This document shows, piece after piece, positions 15,165 to 23,566 of a stretch of DNA of 23,657 bases (the first letter of the stretch is position 1; each line of letters opens with the position of its first letter). The notes beneath the pieces were generated by a model, which saw only the letters and a list, made by a program, of their open reading frames with translations, was not told the DNA's origin and made no database searches. Made by a program: the position numbers and the translations under genes. Source of the stretch: a virus; the IMG/VR virus record IMGVR_UViG_3300005747_001325, positions 1 to 23,657 of that record; one strand, 5' to 3'.

Positions 15165-15242
15165 TGGCGACCCCTGTAGGACTCGAACCCACGACCTAAT
15201 GCTTAGAAGGCACTTGCTCTAATCCTGCTGAGCTAAGGAGTC
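15165..15242 (-). tRNA. tRNA-Arg(TCT)
   Basis: Complete cloverleaf on the minus strand: acceptor GACTCCT/AGGGGTC (one G-U), D stem GCTC/GAGC, anticodon stem AGTGC/GCATT with loop CTTCTAA (anticodon TCT), T stem GTGGG/CCTAC with TTCGAGT loop, discriminator G and encoded CCA. Reads AGA codons, which are common in these genes. Confidence 0.95.
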
Positions 15243-16830: not shown

Positions 16831-17457
16831 CTAATTTTTAGTTCTAATCTCAATATTTTCCGTTTTAGGAATCTTCAACAAATCGTGTTTATGGTAAAGA
16901 ACAAACTGTGTATCCTTAAACTCATTAAAGATCCCGTTCCAAATTGGTCGCCATCGATCATTTAATCTGACGTTGTTCATTGCACCTCTATCGGAGTTCA
17001 GGACTAGATCCGTATAGCTTTGTAAGTTCATATCAAATAAGGAGTCAAACCCATACATGTGGATCTCTGTCCCCTTTAGATGATTAGCAGCATAGTGTAC
17101 AGCAAAGTGTCCGCAGTTGAAGTTAGTGTACATATTACCTTTAGTGTCGGTGGGACTAAGCTTTGTATACTCTGGAACGTGTGTGTAAAAGCCGCGGATC
17201 TTATGCCCGAACTTCATTTTGAAGTTGCCTCTGTTATTGTCATACCAGATCTTAGGTCTATATCCTAAGGTCCATTGACCATCAATCTGAACGCTACCTT
17301 CAGTTAATGCCATACACATTTTAAAATCGACAATACACGAGGTATAAAGATTACGTATGGCCATTGGTGGCTGATTACAACCAACCTTTATACCTTTTGC
17401 ATCTCTATACATACGGGCATTATCCCCATTACCTATAACATGAATTACGCGACTCAT
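16831..17457 (-). CDS. Glycan-locus protein, possible sialyltransferase/DUF115-like transferase
   Basis: 208 residues. Opens with SRVIHVIGNGDNARMYRD and IKVGCNQPP, a nucleotide-binding-like Rossmann start followed by a conserved polar loop; later CGHFAVHYAANHLKGTEIHM then YGFDSLFD and RWRPIWNGIF. The order GNG...N...GTEIHMYGFDS resembles GT42 sialyltransferase/DUF115-like folds. Activity is not proven. TAGGAGA ribosome site; overlaps the upstream GT by 29 bases. Last gene of the glycan locus. Confidence 0.7.
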   Translation of the reverse strand: MSRVIHVIGNGDNARMYRDAKGIKVGCNQPPMAIRNLYTSCIVDFKMCMALTEGSVQIDGQWTLGYRPKIWYDNNRGNFKMKFGHKIRGFYTHVPEYTKLSPTDTKGNMYTNFNCGHFAVHYAANHLKGTEIHMYGFDSLFDMNLQSYTDLVLNSDRGAMNNVRLNDRWRPIWNGIFNEFKDTQFVLYHKHDLLKIPKTENIEIRTKN

Positions 17458-18103
17458 GGAACTCTCCTATATCCTCTTTTATAAGATCCTGAATGTGTTG
17501 CTTACCCTTCCCACCAGTCCAATGCATTATCCTGATATCTTTAGGTGCAGTTTGGTCAATAAGGTCAAGCCTTAATGTGTTATACTTTTTAGGAAGATCT
17601 TTAATATATATCTCTTTACTTAACGGATCACCAAGAAGTTCGTGTAGTACTTCCTGATCACCCACTTCGGGATTACTAGCTACTGCATTACGCCATTTCT
17701 GTAGGATCGGAGGTAGACCTTGGAATCCAACCACACCAGAGTTATGCCATTTGCTTTGTCTACGACTAGTCCACGGCTGATCCACTACCATCGATAATTT
17801 GTTTGGTTCAATGTGGTCAAAGATCTCATCGATTGGTCCTTGTACATGACAATCAGTATCAATCCAGCAAACCTTTTCAGACACCTTCGATGCAGCAATC
17901 ATCGCATCTGGTTTCTTAAACCATCCAACGCTTTTACTTTCTAGTGGTGAGGGCCCAAATACTCGTTTGGCTTCTGTGGTCATACCAAAGTCATAAACTA
18001 TAATATTGGTATTAGTATGAATCTTAATAGTATCCATAAACCAACCTAGCATCCATTCAGTGTTACTATCACATCCAGTAATAAAGGTCTTAGAGTATTT
18101 CAT
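17429..18103 (-). CDS. GT8-like glycosyltransferase
   Basis: 224 residues with a GT-A fold: DTD metal/nucleotide motif (Asp82, Asp84 in VCWIDTDCHV), SKWHNSGVVGFQG (about 118-129) and a C-terminal MHWTGGKGKQH (about 193-203), the GT8-style HxxGxxK ending. Should transfer a hexose from a nucleotide sugar. Overlaps the upstream GT25-like gene by 14 bases. No signal peptide, so cytoplasmic. Acceptor unknown. Confidence 0.82.
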   Translation of the reverse strand: MKYSKTFITGCDSNTEWMLGWFMDTIKIHTNTNIIVYDFGMTTEAKRVFGPSPLESKSVGWFKKPDAMIAASKVSEKVCWIDTDCHVQGPIDEIFDHIEPNKLSMVVDQPWTSRRQSKWHNSGVVGFQGLPPILQKWRNAVASNPEVGDQEVLHELLGDPLSKEIYIKDLPKKYNTLRLDLIDQTAPKDIRIMHWTGGKGKQHIQDLIKEDIGEFHESRNSCYR

Positions 18104-18737
18104 AGTTGCTGTCCCATGTATGTTTAGCTACACATCCTACAGGATTCTGGATTGTAGTGAATGTATCCTTAACAACCACCTTCCAGGGGTAGTGCTCTTG
18201 CAGGTAAGGAAAGTTCTGTGTATTCATAAACACGTCAGTTGGTCCCGCTTGGATCTTTGCCTGGTATACTAGATCCTTTGCTCCCCATGGATTAATCCGA
18301 TACGCGTGCGCGCCTCCGAAGTATCTCTTATGTGTAAGTGGACCAGTTCCAAGGAATGGAGGGATCCTATATTTACCATATGATGGTGCACCAAGATTCA
18401 GGATCTTATTAAATGCAATAGTATCCTTTATCTCGTCCACAATAACCGCATCATGTTCAAAGATAGTAATTGGCCGCCGTGTGTTTAATGATAGTTTCCA
18501 TAGTGAGTAATGAGATAGAAAGGCAGCGATACAATTATCAATGCGGGAATACATCTCAGTAAAGCCAAGGGACGAAAGTTCTTCCCTTTTCATCATCTTT
18601 GTTATATCTGTATTACTAGGTGTGATAGCATCAAACATCTCGATCTTCATACCATAGTGTTCGCCTGACTTAATAAGTCGTTCAGCGTATTTTACTGACT
18701 GTGGAAGATCTTTTATAGTAATGACATAATGTTTCAT
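18090..18737 (-). CDS. GT25-like glycosyltransferase
   Basis: 215 residues, LgtB/GT25 type: MKHYVITIKDLPQS opening, EMFDAITPSN, CIAAFLSHYSLW, then the acidic EHD motif (94-96 in ITIFEHDAVI) and GGAHAYRINPWGAKDLVYQA. The start at 18737 shares ATGA with the previous stop and matches the family start; the longer in-frame reading is a shadow. One of three GT25-like genes in the locus. Confidence 0.85.
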   Translation of the reverse strand: MKHYVITIKDLPQSVKYAERLIKSGEHYGMKIEMFDAITPSNTDITKMMKREELSSLGFTEMYSRIDNCIAAFLSHYSLWKLSLNTRRPITIFEHDAVIVDEIKDTIAFNKILNLGAPSYGKYRIPPFLGTGPLTHKRYFGGAHAYRINPWGAKDLVYQAKIQAGPTDVFMNTQNFPYLQEHYPWKVVVKDTFTTIQNPVGCVAKHTWDSNYEIL

Positions 18738-19432
18738 AGTGTGGTTGTGCTCGCTGTTCTTTGGACTTTGGTATAGTATGTTTTGCTTACACCCAATAAC
18801 GGAAATAGTTGGTAACACATCAAGGCGTCGTTTGGCCATAAGCCATATTCATTTACTAATTCTAACATCTCTTCCGCTGCCCATGGTTTAATTATATAGG
18901 CAGAGTTGCCAGCTAATCCTTGGGGAATGTTTATATTATCTATACGTGGAACATTAGCAACCTCTGATTTTGACTCCTGGAGCATCCTATGGAACGCTGT
19001 AGCCATCCTTGTAGCACCGAAAGGTTCATTAATGCCGATAATACCATACCGAGATTCTAATAGGCTGTCGTACGATAATTTTCTAGTAAAGATCGCATCA
19101 TGTTCCAGTACTAGTATTGGTTCACGTTCATCAAAGCACTTTTCCCATAGTGTCAAGTGGCTCAGCGCACAAGCTATTCTAGCATTTTTATTTCGGGTCG
19201 GATATGCTTTCTTTGTTAACCCTGATGCAAAGTCAACTACTTCGCCTTCCCAGGGATAGTTCCATTTTGTTCTATACCGATGCGTCATTAAGGCTTGCGC
19301 ATCATCAGGAACTATAGCATCAAATCTTTCTATAGGGAACTCGTTCTTTACCCGCCAACTGCTTTCAATACAATGCTGTGAAGCAGTTTCGGATATCTCA
19401 TTACCCTCAATTGTTATAACATAAGCTCTCAT
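18734..19432 (-). CDS. GT25-like glycosyltransferase
   Basis: 232 residues: MRAYVITIEGNEIS, ERFDAIVPDD, ARIACALSHLTLWEKCF, then EHD (110-112 in ILVLEHDAIF), and GLAGNSAYIIKPWAAEEMLE. Same architecture as the downstream and the 21469 paralogues but divergent, so each may add a different sugar or linkage. Start shares ATGA with the cupin stop. Confidence 0.87.
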   Translation of the reverse strand: MRAYVITIEGNEISETASQHCIESSWRVKNEFPIERFDAIVPDDAQALMTHRYRTKWNYPWEGEVVDFASGLTKKAYPTRNKNARIACALSHLTLWEKCFDEREPILVLEHDAIFTRKLSYDSLLESRYGIIGINEPFGATRMATAFHRMLQESKSEVANVPRIDNINIPQGLAGNSAYIIKPWAAEEMLELVNEYGLWPNDALMCYQLFPLLGVSKTYYTKVQRTASTTTL

Positions 19433-19788
19433 TTTTGGCTATCACCCGGCATAACCCTATAATTATCCTCTACCGAATCTGGAGTAGAAACTTCTATAAT
19501 AGTTCCTTTGTCAATACAATATATCTTATGCGGTAGCAAAGGTTTATTACGCCAGGTGTCTCCTTGATTTAATTCTTGTTTATGGCTACTAGCATCTTTG
19601 GTATCAATCCATTGTACCAAAAAGCTGCCGTCTAGTACATACCAAGTTTCATCTTTTTCTCTATGGAAATGCATGGAGAACTGAGCGCCTTTATTAAACC
19701 TTAAAAGCTTACCGCAGTACTTGTCGTTAGTGGACCAGATCAGTTCGTGACCCCAGCCTTTTTCTACAAAGCCATTTAATCTATCCAC
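19429..19788 (-). CDS. Cupin, phosphomannose isomerase type II-like
   Basis: 119 residues in one cupin barrel: VEKGWGHELIW, FSMHFHREKDETWYVLDG with His40, His42 and Glu47 as metal ligands, QGDTWRNKPLLPHKIYCI (His87), and VSTPDSVEDNYRVMPGDS. Resembles the C-terminal isomerase half of mannose-1-phosphate guanylyltransferase enzymes; could isomerise a sugar phosphate for the locus. GTG start at 19788, one base after the kinase stop; no ATG is available before the conserved core. Confidence 0.8.
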   Translation of the reverse strand: MDRLNGFVEKGWGHELIWSTNDKYCGKLLRFNKGAQFSMHFHREKDETWYVLDGSFLVQWIDTKDASSHKQELNQGDTWRNKPLLPHKIYCIDKGTIIEVSTPDSVEDNYRVMPGDSQK

Positions 19789-19789
19789 T

Positions 19790-20548
19790 TTAGATCTCCT
19801 CTAGTGTTGGGGCATAAACACCCATGTGCTGAACTGTTATTGCCGCAGCTTGTATAGCAAACTCAATAGCCTGACTAATATCTTTCGTGTCCAGATGTTT
19901 CTTTACAAAAGCGGCGAAGAAAGTGTCACCAGCACCGCATACATCATTTACTTTAATATTAGGTGTAGGAAACGACTTACCGTACCATAAGACCTCTTTG
20001 CCGCCTTTCGTAACAATTGTAGTGTGGTAATCTGGGGATGAGGTTTTATTAAGGTATTCGTCTTCATTAATTTTTAGATACGCGCCGGAAAATCTAGAAA
20101 GATCGGGCTTCTTTGTATCAATATAGATTGGAATCCCTAGCTTATTTCCAGTGCGTATTATATGCTCAATATCGACATATGTTAAGAAGCCTTTATTGTA
20201 ATCAGTAATCACAATAGCATCAGAGGATGGGTCAATAAAATTAGTGCGACCAATACGTTCATCTATATCCTCATCGACTCTTAGAATCTGGTAATTAGTC
20301 TTCTCATCAATGTACCGGGTCTTAATACTTCTACCGGTGGCGGTGTATTGTACGGGATTACATCCAAAGTTTTTGAAGTTGTTGGACACATTAAAAATCA
20401 TACCGGCTTTATTTTGGGTATATCTTTCTTTAAAGACGGGGATGGGAGCTTCAGGACTTATTCGATCGACAGATCCATAGACATATCGATCAGTACAGCC
20501 GTCTCCGATTAATGTAATTTTCCAAGGTGTTTGTGGTTGACTCATCAT
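19790..20548 (-). CDS. PfkB-family sugar kinase, HldE kinase-domain-like
   Basis: 252 residues. Opening TLIGDGCTDRYVYGSVDRIS then PEAPIPVF is the heptose-7-phosphate kinase (HldE N-domain) signature; NDVCGAGDTFFAAF carries the PfkB catalytic GAGD (Asp208). Shorter than the HldE kinase domain (about 310), with the middle condensed. Would phosphorylate heptose-7-phosphate at C1. The start (20548 or 20545) must precede residue 11, so the 56-59 base overlap with the nucleotidyltransferase gene is real. The two together look like a split HldE. Confidence 0.85.
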   Translation of the reverse strand: MMSQPQTPWKITLIGDGCTDRYVYGSVDRISPEAPIPVFKERYTQNKAGMIFNVSNNFKNFGCNPVQYTATGRSIKTRYIDEKTNYQILRVDEDIDERIGRTNFIDPSSDAIVITDYNKGFLTYVDIEHIIRTGNKLGIPIYIDTKKPDLSRFSGAYLKINEDEYLNKTSSPDYHTTIVTKGGKEVLWYGKSFPTPNIKVNDVCGAGDTFFAAFVKKHLDTKDISQAIEFAIQAAAITVQHMGVYAPTLEEI

Positions 20549-20900
20549 TCACTCTATCGAAGAACTCTATACCCTTACAGAATTCCTCCCCTACTATTTT
20601 ACCATTCTTCCAGTCCGAACCGATTACTCTTACATCAGGTTTATACTCTTTTATAATTGTAACTAATTCTTCATCGTTTGTAAATACCCTAACTTCATCA
20701 ACAGCCTTTAAATTCTCTAATATACATTTACGAGTCTGGAGATTATTGACTGGACGATCCGGGCCTTTGGCTTCACTTATCCTAGAATCTGTGTCAATAG
20801 CTACCATAAGATAATCACCCAGAGACTTAGCATAATTGAGTAGTGCTATGTGCCCCGGGTGTAATATATCATATGCGCCATTCGCCATTATATATTTCAT
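20490..20900 (-). CDS. Nucleotidyltransferase, HldE C-domain (RfaE2)-like
   Basis: 136 residues of the cytidylyltransferase-like superfamily: NGAYDILHPGHIALLNYAKS with the HxGH motif (His14, His17), AKGPDRPVNNLQTRK, and a C-terminal NDESTTNTLENYI matching the HldE STTN end. It should couple a sugar-1-phosphate to a nucleotide, making ADP-heptose if it follows HldE, although a glycerol-phosphate type substrate cannot be excluded. Start shares ATGA with the methyltransferase stop. Confidence 0.85.
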   Translation of the reverse strand: MKYIMANGAYDILHPGHIALLNYAKSLGDYLMVAIDTDSRISEAKGPDRPVNNLQTRKCILENLKAVDEVRVFTNDEELVTIIKEYKPDVRVIGSDWKNGKIVGEEFCKGIEFFDRVNDESTTNTLENYINRRRLY

Positions 20901-21472
20901 TTTCTTTTAATCAGCATTGCTCCTACGCCCTCAGTAAGCTCTTCTACTAATCCAAACTGGCTACCAATAATATCAGATTTCATCCACTCTTTTACGCCAG
21001 GGCCAATCGGAGAGGGTTTACCATGAATCATTGCTGTATCATGAAATACAATCCAATCCCTAACGGATGCAGCATGAAGTTCCAATTCTCTTTGAACCCA
21101 TGGCCAAGTGTGAACAGAATCGATTAGCATTGTATCACAAGGACCTACACATTGTTTATCGTGGGAGCTGCAATTATAAAGGCGAAGGGTACCATTGTGC
21201 TCTTTCAGATAGTCATCAAAGTATTTTTTATGGGTGTTGAATGGGTTAAAGTCGACATCCACTAGATGTAGCTCTCTAGCACCGTGTAGGGCAGCATACG
21301 CTGCACTCCATCCATAATATGTACCTAGCTCTTTATGCACATATCCTTCTCTCATATTTTCGCGAATAAGATCATAATGGCAACGATAACGATAATCTTT
21401 AGTGCCAACTTCTTTAAATTTTTCTGTTAAATCATATAGATCTTTCGCATCCTTGATTTGCAAATTTCTCAT
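20897..21472 (-). CDS. SAM-dependent methyltransferase (Methyltransf_24-like)
   Basis: 191 residues: motif I HKELGTYYGWSAAYAA (about 47-61), LHLVDVDFN, TMLIDSVHTWPWVQRELELH (about 114-133) and WIVFHDTAM. This order is typical of Methyltransf_24-type enzymes found in glycan loci, which often methylate sugars at O or N. Coupled on both sides by ATGA overlaps. Substrate unknown. Confidence 0.85.
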   Translation of the reverse strand: MRNLQIKDAKDLYDLTEKFKEVGTKDYRYRCHYDLIRENMREGYVHKELGTYYGWSAAYAALHGARELHLVDVDFNPFNTHKKYFDDYLKEHNGTLRLYNCSSHDKQCVGPCDTMLIDSVHTWPWVQRELELHAASVRDWIVFHDTAMIHGKPSPIGPGVKEWMKSDIIGSQFGLVEELTEGVGAMLIKRK

Positions 21473-22167
21473 GTATTTTCTCCGTGACTCGTTCTTTGAT
21501 TTCCGAAAATATAATGCGATAGTTCGAAATAATCCGGAAACGCGTATTGCATATGTATAGACTTAGTATTAATAATATAGTCAGCTTTGTCCCAACCATG
21601 TTCCTTTACATTGTTGATAATTCGTTTGGCACCCTTAGGTGATATAGCATAAGCAGCGCTTCCAGGGATCATTCCGGCATTAAGCCATATATTTTTTGAT
21701 TTGTAATTTAAAAATGGATTGACGTATGTATGTATGCCTTCCATAAGAGTGGGCTTGCTTGTGGTATCAAATATGTTTTGATGTAGACCGCTGTGCATAT
21801 TCAGTACTAGCATCTCATCGAATTGCGTGTCGTCCCAAGGCTTTTTTGCAAATACATCGTGTTCTAAAATTACAATGGGTTCGTCTAATTCTATACACTT
21901 ATTCCACAGTGTATAGTGATTTAAGAAGTTGGAATATTTACATTCATATGTCCAGTTAGTACCATTCTTCCCAATCTGTCTATCGTACATATGACTAGGA
22001 TTCATTACAGTTAAATTGTATTTCTTATCGAACTCTTTTACATTCTTAGGTGTAATCCCTTCAAAGAGTTCCGCGTCATATCCGTGCTCAATACAAGAAT
22101 CATATGCCCATCCTGCGGTCTTTTCAGAATTAGCATTGCCTTTAATATGAATAATGTAAGCCTTCAT
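21469..22167 (-). CDS. GT25-like glycosyltransferase
   Basis: 232 residues: MKAYIIHIKGNANSEK, AELFEGITPKN, YSNFLNHYTLWNKC, EHD (102-104 in IVILEHDVFA), and GSAAYAISPKGAKRII. Third GT25-like enzyme of the locus. ATGA overlap with the upstream GT9-like gene. Confidence 0.86.
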   Translation of the reverse strand: MKAYIIHIKGNANSEKTAGWAYDSCIEHGYDAELFEGITPKNVKEFDKKYNLTVMNPSHMYDRQIGKNGTNWTYECKYSNFLNHYTLWNKCIELDEPIVILEHDVFAKKPWDDTQFDEMLVLNMHSGLHQNIFDTTSKPTLMEGIHTYVNPFLNYKSKNIWLNAGMIPGSAAYAISPKGAKRIINNVKEHGWDKADYIINTKSIHMQYAFPDYFELSHYIFGNQRTSHGENT

Positions 22168-22856
22168 ATCCTTAAAGCCTTTTTTTGATAGTCGGCGTAT
22201 GGCGGAACATTTACTTTATTCTCTTTTGCATATTGATGGTACTGTTCCTCGGTAGCTACTTTCACGCCTTTACCGGTCTGCTGGTATATCGTTACACCGG
22301 GTTGTGTCTGTAGGTATCTCATATAGTGATACGCATCAGCAAAATAATAACTATTCTTAGAGATAACTGTAGTTGGTATTTTTAGTGCGGCAGCTAACCA
22401 GGCCGTGCCGGAATCTATAGTTATATGCCGCTCCGACTTTTTCATTAGTCTTACAAGGCTATCAAGATCTGTGCACCTCAATGTGTCCTGGGGGTTGTTT
22501 AGCTTCTGAAGCTGCTCATCTATTTCTACGGGGCTTAGTGCTCGGTCTGCAGCATTGTTACTATTTGTTTTAAATTGGAAAGTGGAGTGTTCTGCTTTAG
22601 ATCGATTTGTAATACTAATTAAGGGTGCTTTATCAATACGCATTTTGTGTAATAGATCGGGCATTGTTTCGGTGATACGCCCATCGATATGCACAAACTC
22701 TGGGACCTCTACCTTTGCGATCTCTAGAATCTTTAATAGAGTGTTAAAGTCCCCTCGGTTATAATATACAGTCTTTATGGCGTAATGTTTAAAGTAACTG
22801 GCCAGGATAATACTATCGCCCAGTGCATCGAATATTCTATACAAGCTTACATTCAT
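22164..22856 (-). CDS. GT9-like (ADP-heptosyltransferase-type) glycosyltransferase
   Basis: 230 residues, GT-B-like. The N-terminal LYRIFDALGDSIILAS is the GD-containing start of GT9 enzymes, and RHITIDSGTAWLAAALKIPT then TVIS (about 143-166) matches their DTGxxHxAAAL-P nucleotide-binding stretch, with Trp where His is usual. Shorter than LPS heptosyltransferases (about 320-350). With the HldE-like pair in the same locus, ADP-heptose is a plausible donor. Coupled by ATGA overlaps. Confidence 0.75.
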   Translation of the reverse strand: MNVSLYRIFDALGDSIILASYFKHYAIKTVYYNRGDFNTLLKILEIAKVEVPEFVHIDGRITETMPDLLHKMRIDKAPLISITNRSKAEHSTFQFKTNSNNAADRALSPVEIDEQLQKLNNPQDTLRCTDLDSLVRLMKKSERHITIDSGTAWLAAALKIPTTVISKNSYYFADAYHYMRYLQTQPGVTIYQQTGKGVKVATEEQYHQYAKENKVNVPPYADYQKKALRI

Positions 22857-23566
22857 GATGTAAATTCTTTCATTCTAGTTTTTGTTTTTGCAAGGAAGTG
22901 GTTAATCTTCCCATCCGGTATTCCGAACGACCACATATAGTTCATACGATTCCATTGGTTGGATAGTTCAACTACATGTATATCATGTTTATTAATCATA
23001 AGGTTTAGATAAGGTTGTTCATTCATTCGAAGCGTATTTCTATATCTTTCTATCTCGAGCATACCCCCAAAGAGCTTTCGGGCTTTCAGTCTTCCCTCTT
23101 TAGTCCATAGAACCACACCACCATTTAAATATCTTTTCTCTAACGGAAATGTAGTAGACTTTTTAAACTGGATATTTCCATACGCTTCTAATTTACTTAT
23201 AGCGCTATTAATAAAGCCTTTCGGACTTCTAGGTCCACCTTCTTGGATCATGCCGATCTCTTTGATATTCTGGTCAAATATATTATCAGTAGTGTCAACA
23301 AGCGTGTCTATGTCTAGCATTAGTACCTTATCAAACTGATCAAAGTATGGATCAAGAAATACCCTGCAGGCTTCTAGATTCTGATTAGGGGCATGGATAG
23401 TTACCTTAGTAGACAATTCATATTTAACACCGATAGCTGCAGCATACTTTTTAGCTGACCGGATACCCAGATTAGCCCAGTGCGGAAATCCATCGGCTTC
23501 CTCTTTAATAATGTCTTTATTGTCACCGGTAAAAGGTAGATAGTATTGGTAGATTAGATTAGCCAT
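22853..23566 (-). CDS. GT8/GT32-like glycosyltransferase
   Basis: 237 residues: IYQYYLPF opening, KVLMLDIDTLVDTTDNIFD with DxD (Asp85, Asp87), EKRYLNGGVVLWTKEG (about 144-157) and a C-terminal QWNRMNYMWSFGIPDGKINH then FL. GT-A fold, nucleotide-sugar-dependent. Its C-terminus resembles that of the preceding partial gene, so the two are tandem paralogues. Start overlaps that gene's stop by eight bases. Confidence 0.82.
   Translation of the reverse strand: MANLIYQYYLPFTGDNKDIIKEEADGFPHWANLGIRSAKKYAAAIGVKYELSTKVTIHAPNQNLEACRVFLDPYFDQFDKVLMLDIDTLVDTTDNIFDQNIKEIGMIQEGGPRSPKGFINSAISKLEAYGNIQFKKSTTFPLEKRYLNGGVVLWTKEGRLKARKLFGGMLEIERYRNTLRMNEQPYLNLMINKHDIHVVELSNQWNRMNYMWSFGIPDGKINHFLAKTKTRMKEFTS

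Follow-up and report, generated by a model that had tools for sequence, protein, structure and literature searches.

A cupin gene beside an HldE-type kinase and adenylyltransferase in a T4-like phage: a candidate replacement for the phosphoheptose isomerase GmhA

How might a phage begin the synthesis of an activated heptose if it carries an HldE-type kinase and adenylyltransferase, yet no gene for the phosphoheptose isomerase GmhA? The question is raised by IMG/VR record IMGVR_UViG_3300005747_001325, whose 23,657 nucleotides we analysed as a whole (the window); the window is the entire virus record and is probably a fragment of the virus. On its minus strand stand three adjacent genes: first an HldE-type (heptose-1-phosphate) adenylyltransferase (20490..20900; 136 amino acids), then a compact HldE-type sugar kinase of the PfkB fold (19790..20548; 252 amino acids), and then a metal-type cupin (19429..19788; 119 amino acids, GTG start). 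The first two genes share 59 bases, and the cupin starts 1 base past the kinase. We propose, with a probability of about 0.7, that this trio is a heptose-activation module in which the cupin is a phosphoheptose isomerase, not homologous to GmhA, that takes its place.

The family identity of the kinase and the adenylyltransferase is read from motifs and profiles together. The translated adenylyltransferase contains HPGH, RPVN and STTN, and the kinase contains DRYVYGSVDRISPEAPIPVF and GAGDT; the first-pass annotation, which had described a PfkB kinase with an HldE motif overlapping a nucleotidyltransferase with these three motifs, was right on this point. When the pair is compared with NCBIfam, the best model for the adenylyltransferase is HldE domain II (TIGR02199, E 1.5e-32) and that for the kinase is HldE domain I (TIGR02198, E 9.3e-36); their PHROGs matches are phrog_7878 (E 1.9e-44) and phrog_8133 (E 1.2e-80). 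The adenylyltransferase is 42% identical to residues 341-444 of E. coli HldE, and it passes the cytidylyltransferase-like superfamily PF01467 with 55.3 bits against a gathering threshold of 21, HxGH being present. The kinase is 29% identical to E. coli HldE, and its closest solved structure is HldA (4e84, E 1.1e-14), with ribokinases well behind. Aligned with the E. coli protein it has the N-terminal and GAGD motifs of HldE, in which R29, P32, P35 and G205-D208 are invariant, but some 40 consecutive residues (near 68-107) are missing from it, a gap that recurs in the other aligned phage kinases.

The suggested profile check of the pair against HldE, HddA/HddC and TagD thus returns HldE for both proteins. 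We rejected TagD alone as an identity for the adenylyltransferase, which NCBIfam scores at 112 bits for HldE domain II and 71.8 bits for TagD. We likewise rejected HddA/HddC, which are a GHMP kinase and another nucleotidyltransferase fold, whereas the window kinase is of the PfkB fold. The first-pass annotation had also supposed that a bifunctional HldE was split into two genes. The HldE families stand; the split does not, since fused HldE (477 amino acids in E. coli) places the kinase first and the window has the adenylyltransferase before the kinase, and since standalone kinases and adenylyltransferases are common in relatives. Because the order is reversed, ‘split HldE’ fits the pair only as a likeness. 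As a separate observation, one bacterial metagenome-assembled genome (L135:6730-7869) has a compact phage-type kinase fused to an adenylyltransferase in the HldE order, next to HldD, a window-type cupin and GmhB; at other places the same genome encodes GmhA and a full HldE kinase as well.

Is the association of the cupin with this pair a general one among viruses? There are 593 viral matches to the kinase and 586 confirmed viral matches to the cupin, and for each we studied the loci of the best 80, a choice that leans towards the query; cupins below 60 bits were left out of the cupin family. Of the 80 kinase-selected loci, 74 hold a cupin, 79 an adenylyltransferase, 68 an HldD-like gene and 25 a phosphatase of the HAD or GmhB kind; GmhA lies near the kinase in none of them. 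Counting one row per 90% identity cluster (74 rows) gives 68 cupins, 73 adenylyltransferases, 62 HldD and 0 GmhA. Conversely, all 80 cupin-selected loci give 68 kinases, 66 adenylyltransferases, 72 HAD phosphatases, 49 HldD and 2 GmhA-like genes; once 16 loci with short flanks are set aside, the remaining 64 give 60, 60, 63, 37 and 2, respectively. Two exceptions among the cupin-selected loci, L041 and L058, and phage SynMITS9220M01 have the cupin amid an HddC-like nucleotidyltransferase and a GHMP kinase of HddA type (NF049969; the SynMITS9220M01 match has E 3e-85). Heptose 7-phosphate serves both HddA and HldE as substrate, and these two kinases are not related. A second sugar-activation cluster stands beside the cupin module, or is added to it, in the phage-like loci L251:8923-12002, L086:8330-11411, L098:8336-11411 and L116:9246-12343; it consists of a GHMP kinase, a small GmhA-like SIS protein, a HAD-adenylyltransferase fusion and an HldD-like epimerase.

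The relatives of the window kinase occur in 35 phage records, mainly cyanophages, and the adenylyltransferase/kinase pair is already known and annotated in many of these. In nine cyanophage genomes GC304 (adenylyltransferase), GC305 (kinase), GC306 and GC307 (the cupin, present in 9/9) are clustered or near each other, and GC308, an HldD-like epimerase (TIGR02197, E ~1e-61), accompanies the cluster in 7/9. The HldD-like epimerases of relatives match at E about 1e-53 to 1e-65. That the relatives carry the pair beside HldD-like and phosphatase genes supports the earlier placement of the pair in the HldE/heptose pathway. Like the window, the cyanophage T4-GC 304-308 clusters (P-SSM2, S-CAM1, S-SSM7) run from adenylyltransferase through kinase to cupin and adjoin glycan genes; unlike them, the window lacks GC306 and GC308, and its kinase is 35-43% identical to theirs. 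GC306, annotated as a phosphoheptose isomerase, is by profile a HAD phosphatase of EcbF type, hence apparently a GmhB-like phosphatase and no isomerase, and we rejected it as GmhA.

Since the pair and the cupin are annotated in P-SSM2, S-CAM1, S-SM2 and others, one might regard the trio as ordinary lipopolysaccharide cargo of cyanophage type, that is, a split HldE of the kind already annotated, next to a cupin whose function has nothing to do with it. We hold this to be very improbable: the cupin accompanies the kinase in 74/80 kinase-selected viral loci and is exchanged with GmhA in cells (see below), a pattern far from random. As for previous mentions, heptose genes in a cyanophage appear in PMC7378029, and rfaE in pelagimyophages in PMC7029224. 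Several public labels in this group also deserve a remark. The phosphoheptose isomerase label of the GC306 genes at L002:9719-10063, L003:9725-10048 and L004:16616-16945 looks wrong, and the cupin is labelled cysteine dioxygenase in most of the cyanophage genomes analysed and putative nucleotidyltransferase in L251:3344-3694 (SynMITS9220M01_197) and L009:11904-12275.

The cupin itself is of the metal type by its sequence. Across 70 sequences K27, H40, H42, E47, H87, E99, D108 and R111 are invariant, and they include the metal-type motif HxH(x4)E with a later His (H40, H42, E47, H87), which is predicted to bind a metal. Compared by profile, the family resembles the ManC isomerase domain of E. 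coli (E 1.8e-5); the window cupin reaches 16.7 bits against PF01050 (mannose-6-phosphate isomerase), where the gathering threshold is 23.6. It is unrelated in fold to GmhA (hhalign probability 0.5%). The AlphaFold2 model is a barrel with a pLDDT of 96, and its structural comparison gives Z scores of 14.6 for archaeal phosphomannose isomerases, 14.2 for D-lyxose isomerases and 15.8 for CapF. Because many cupins score alike in this comparison, the modelled fold alone does not single out an isomerase, and we rejected structure search as a means of settling the function. Cupin-type phosphomannose and phosphoglucose isomerases and D-lyxose isomerase catalyse aldose-ketose isomerisation at manno stereochemistry. 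The window cupin resembles them in its single barrel, in HxH(x4)E with a later His and in the ManC match; it differs in that its partners are heptose genes and in that it falls below the cut-off of Pfam MannoseP_isomer.

When cellular genomes were scanned with the phage cupins, 32 loci emerged. In archaea with small genomes and in one bacterium of the candidate phyla radiation (CPR) we find clusters of cupin, HldD, kinase, GmhB and adenylyltransferase, which is to say an ADP-heptose operon complete save for GmhA. The taxa with such cupin operons include Woesearchaeota, Nanoarchaeota and Nomurabacteria, which we take to fall under the labels DPANN, for the small-genome archaea, and CPR, for the bacteria. 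For example, in the cupin operon of the archaeal genome L128 both the kinase (395.5 against 345 bits) and the adenylyltransferase (196.2 against 181.5 bits) exceed the curated HldE cut-offs, HldD scores 273.9 against a cut-off of 274.6 bits, and the best NCBIfam model for the cupin is GMP_PMI (ManC-type, E 3.6e-7). Among ten cupin-operon genomes (L120, L122, L123, L125-L129, L131, L132), seven have no GmhA-sized SIS protein, and the other three have one elsewhere (92-124 bits), which in two of the three adjoins a GHMP kinase and a GmhB-like gene.

We then counted, in two phyla, how often each isomerase accompanies an HldE kinase. The archaeal phylum sample consists of 237 genomes, evenly drawn, with the kinase (E 1e-60 or better) in 50 (52 genes), GmhA in 65 and the cupin in 28. 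Within 6 kb of the 52 kinase genes we find GmhA 27 times, the cupin 11 times, both 0 times and neither 14 times. Counted per genome, with GmhA accepted at 140 bits or more, 27 genomes have GmhA only, 14 the cupin only, one both and eight neither; at 82 bits or more these numbers are 27, 12, 3 and 8. The CPR phylum sample has 370 genomes, and the two isomerases were sought in the 16 that bear a kinase; their 16 kinase genes have GmhA nearby in 9 cases, the cupin in 6, both in 0 and neither in 1. Pooled over the two phyla, the 68 kinase genes have GmhA nearby in 36 cases, the cupin in 17 and both in 0 (one-sided Fisher p 1.3e-7; 1.3e-6 without the three discovery genomes).

The Fisher tests take genes as independent, and for that reason we built a tree of those kinases, 53 in number, that have GmhA or the cupin nearby, using a quick method with SH-aLRT support only. 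On this tree the isomerase partner switches at least 11 times, five of the switches being forced by well-supported (starred) branches; without the three discovery genomes there are 9. Therefore, relatedness alone does not explain the cupin/GmhA pattern. The exchange is visible in single operons as well: L159, L160 and L166 have GmhA-HldD-kinase-GmhB-adenylyltransferase, and L161-L163 have the cupin in GmhA's place. Fused cupins occur too. Among 11 open reading frames eight join the cupin to a kinase (L151-L154, L256-L259), with kinase-GmhA counterparts in L155-L157, one joins it to HldD (L120) and two, both viral, to an adenylyltransferase (L228, L231); HxH(x4)E and the later His are retained in 11/11. 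The cupin and GmhA are thus alike in operon slot, fusion partner and predicted reaction, and unlike in fold.

Sugar enzymes of other kinds, epimerases among them, are also cupins. It is conceivable, then, that the cupin acts elsewhere in the pathway, as an epimerase, an anomer-specific mutarotase or a later modifier of the heptose, with GmhA activity coming from the host. The fold matches do not discriminate against this, and hosts could provide phages with heptose 7-phosphate. Nevertheless we judge it unlikely. In both cellular phyla we find the cupin where GmhA is absent and the remaining pathway complete. An enzyme acting later would be expected alongside GmhA, yet the two occur together near none of the 68 kinase genes. 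The equivalence with GmhA in slot and fusion and the repeated switches also count against it.

Several findings weigh against a GmhA-replacing cupin in a heptose module. The window adenylyltransferase scores 112.4 bits against a curated TIGR02199 cut-off of 181.5, the kinase 123.5 bits against 345 for TIGR02198, and TagD (1coz, E 1e-16) tops a single-sequence search of the PDB with the adenylyltransferase. The fold matches of the cupin include CapF, phosphomannose isomerase, KdgF, quercetinase and oxalate decarboxylase with little or no difference in score, and some relatives of the cupin (e.g. L112, L130, L137, L165, L170) lie away from heptose genes. The cupin is missing from 6/80 kinase-selected viral loci, an extra weak GmhA-like gene stands beside a second kinase in L086, L098, L116 and SynMITS9220M01, and for 15/68 cellular kinase genes neither GmhA nor the cupin is near, perhaps on account of incomplete assemblies. 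Finally, phosphatase and HldD profiles find no match in the window or in L011-L015 and L019-L021, which are fragments, so that absence from the whole viruses is not implied.

The low scores against the curated HldE models, the compact kinase without some 40 HldE residues and the TagD match would also suit a module that activates another ketose-derived sugar phosphate, the cupin being the isomerase for that sugar. We think this improbable. HldE is nonetheless the best profile for both proteins, the relatives carry the HldD-like epimerases described above, and the cupin family pairs both with full-length HldE kinases over the cut-off and with HddA-like kinases.

If the cupin is indeed a phosphoheptose isomerase, it would convert sedoheptulose 7-phosphate to heptose 7-phosphate; the kinase would produce heptose 1,7-bisphosphate, a phosphatase, of which none was found in the window, would remove the 7-phosphate, and the adenylyltransferase would form ADP-heptose, which flanking GT25 and GT8 enzymes would then probably attach to a host or virion glycan. 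The family identity of the pair and the conservation of the trio are observations, as is the finding that cupin and GmhA exclude each other and have been swapped repeatedly; the reaction of the cupin, the sugar that is made and the glycan that receives it are inferences. The masking of receptors or decoration of virions suggested in the first-pass annotation is a hypothetical use of such a sugar. Compared with the Gram-negative ADP-heptose pathway (GmhA, HldE, GmhB, HldD), the kinase and adenylyltransferase families are the same and HldD-like and phosphatase genes are present in relatives, whereas the window has a separate compact kinase and adenylyltransferase in reversed order, a cupin for GmhA and no phosphatase or HldD that we could find. 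The first-pass annotation had observed that GmhA, GmhB and HldD are not in the window and might be provided by the host or by DNA beyond it. The absence holds, as no SIS_2, phosphatase or HldD profile matches there; GmhA, however, need not be host-supplied, because the cupin in the window is its likely replacement. SIS_2, the GmhA fold, was found in 0/16 records, the window and nine complete cyanophage genomes included, and no HldD profile match was found in the window or five close relatives. The phosphatase and HldD must be supplied by the host or lie outside the fragment. The window may yield ADP-heptose in its D,D form, made with a host phosphatase, or the missing genes may lie elsewhere in the virus. 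In S-SM2 and P-TIM68 a transketolase-like gene stands just upstream of the kinase (L004:6978-8186, L007:7847-8992), which could bear on the supply of sedoheptulose 7-phosphate.

Ordinary phosphoglucose isomerase has SIS domains. Cupin-type phosphoglucose isomerases (PMC12965863) are a precedent for the replacement of a SIS enzyme by a cupin. Searches of the open PubMed Central literature, outside which most subscription journals lie, found no text linking a cupin to the phosphoheptose isomerase step. The cupin is the new element here, and it probably stands in for GmhA in a way not recognised before. According to PMC11056994, GmhA, whose reaction is the first committed one when bacteria make heptose, is a drug target. 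If an unrelated enzyme does perform this step, the recognition of heptose pathways in genomes would change: those of phages, archaea and CPR bacteria at present appear incomplete or misnamed, and in the cyanophages analysed the gene that bears the isomerase name is by profile a phosphatase, while the likely isomerase mostly goes by another. The cupin reading hints that phages can use sedoheptulose 7-phosphate for glycan remodelling, and, with the gene present in hundreds of viral contigs, the prediction is cheaply testable by enzyme assay. More tentatively, and with somewhat less than even confidence, we suggest a convergent cupin-fold family of phosphoheptose isomerases in marine and freshwater phages, small-genome archaea and CPR bacteria, freely swapped with GmhA in cells, by which phages start ADP- and GDP-heptose synthesis from sedoheptulose 7-phosphate in hosts that would not themselves have to produce heptose, and so remodel surface or virion glycans during infection.

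The trio belongs to a tightly packed minus-strand block that runs from 23566 down to about 16831. The block opens with a GT8-like glycosyltransferase (22853..23566; PF01501 24.3 bits, equal to the cut-off), a weak GT9-like protein of uncertain function (22164..22856), a GT25 glycosyltransferase (21469..22167; PF01755 E 1.5e-12) and an S-adenosylmethionine methyltransferase (20897..21472; Methyltransf_24, PF13578 E 8.5e-7). After the adenylyltransferase, kinase and cupin follow two further GT25 enzymes (18734..19432, PF01755 E 3.6e-15, sharing 4 bases with the end of the cupin; 18090..18839, PF01755 E 1.7e-9), a possible GT8-like glycosyltransferase (17429..18103; PF01501 16.4 bits, under the cut-off of 24.3) and more small proteins. 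The operon does contain the cupin that had been reported there (Cupin_2 E 1.2e-7), and the reported methyltransferase as well. The GT9-type, heptosyltransferase-like enzyme reported with them is not borne out, and we rejected that reading of 22164-22856: PF01075 gives 17 bits over 38 residues against a gathering threshold of 22, the hhalign probability against WaaC is 1%, and no relative is found among annotated phages. Its relatives in IMG/VR are 88-91% identical, and its structure model (pLDDT 43) is too poor for use. By their profiles, the clear glycosyltransferases around the trio are of the GT25 and GT8 families. In a close relative one more methyltransferase (L020:10362-10853), missing from the window, separates the GT9-like gene from the GT25 gene.

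As a whole the record is that of a T4-like phage, with PHROGs matches to single-stranded DNA-binding protein, tail tube, head closure, baseplate hub and tube-cap families. Megablast finds no annotated phage close to the window, and the baseplate hub protein has one match among annotated phages, in Phage C48C1 (30%). A lone tRNA-Arg (TCT) gene lies on the minus strand at 15165-15242.

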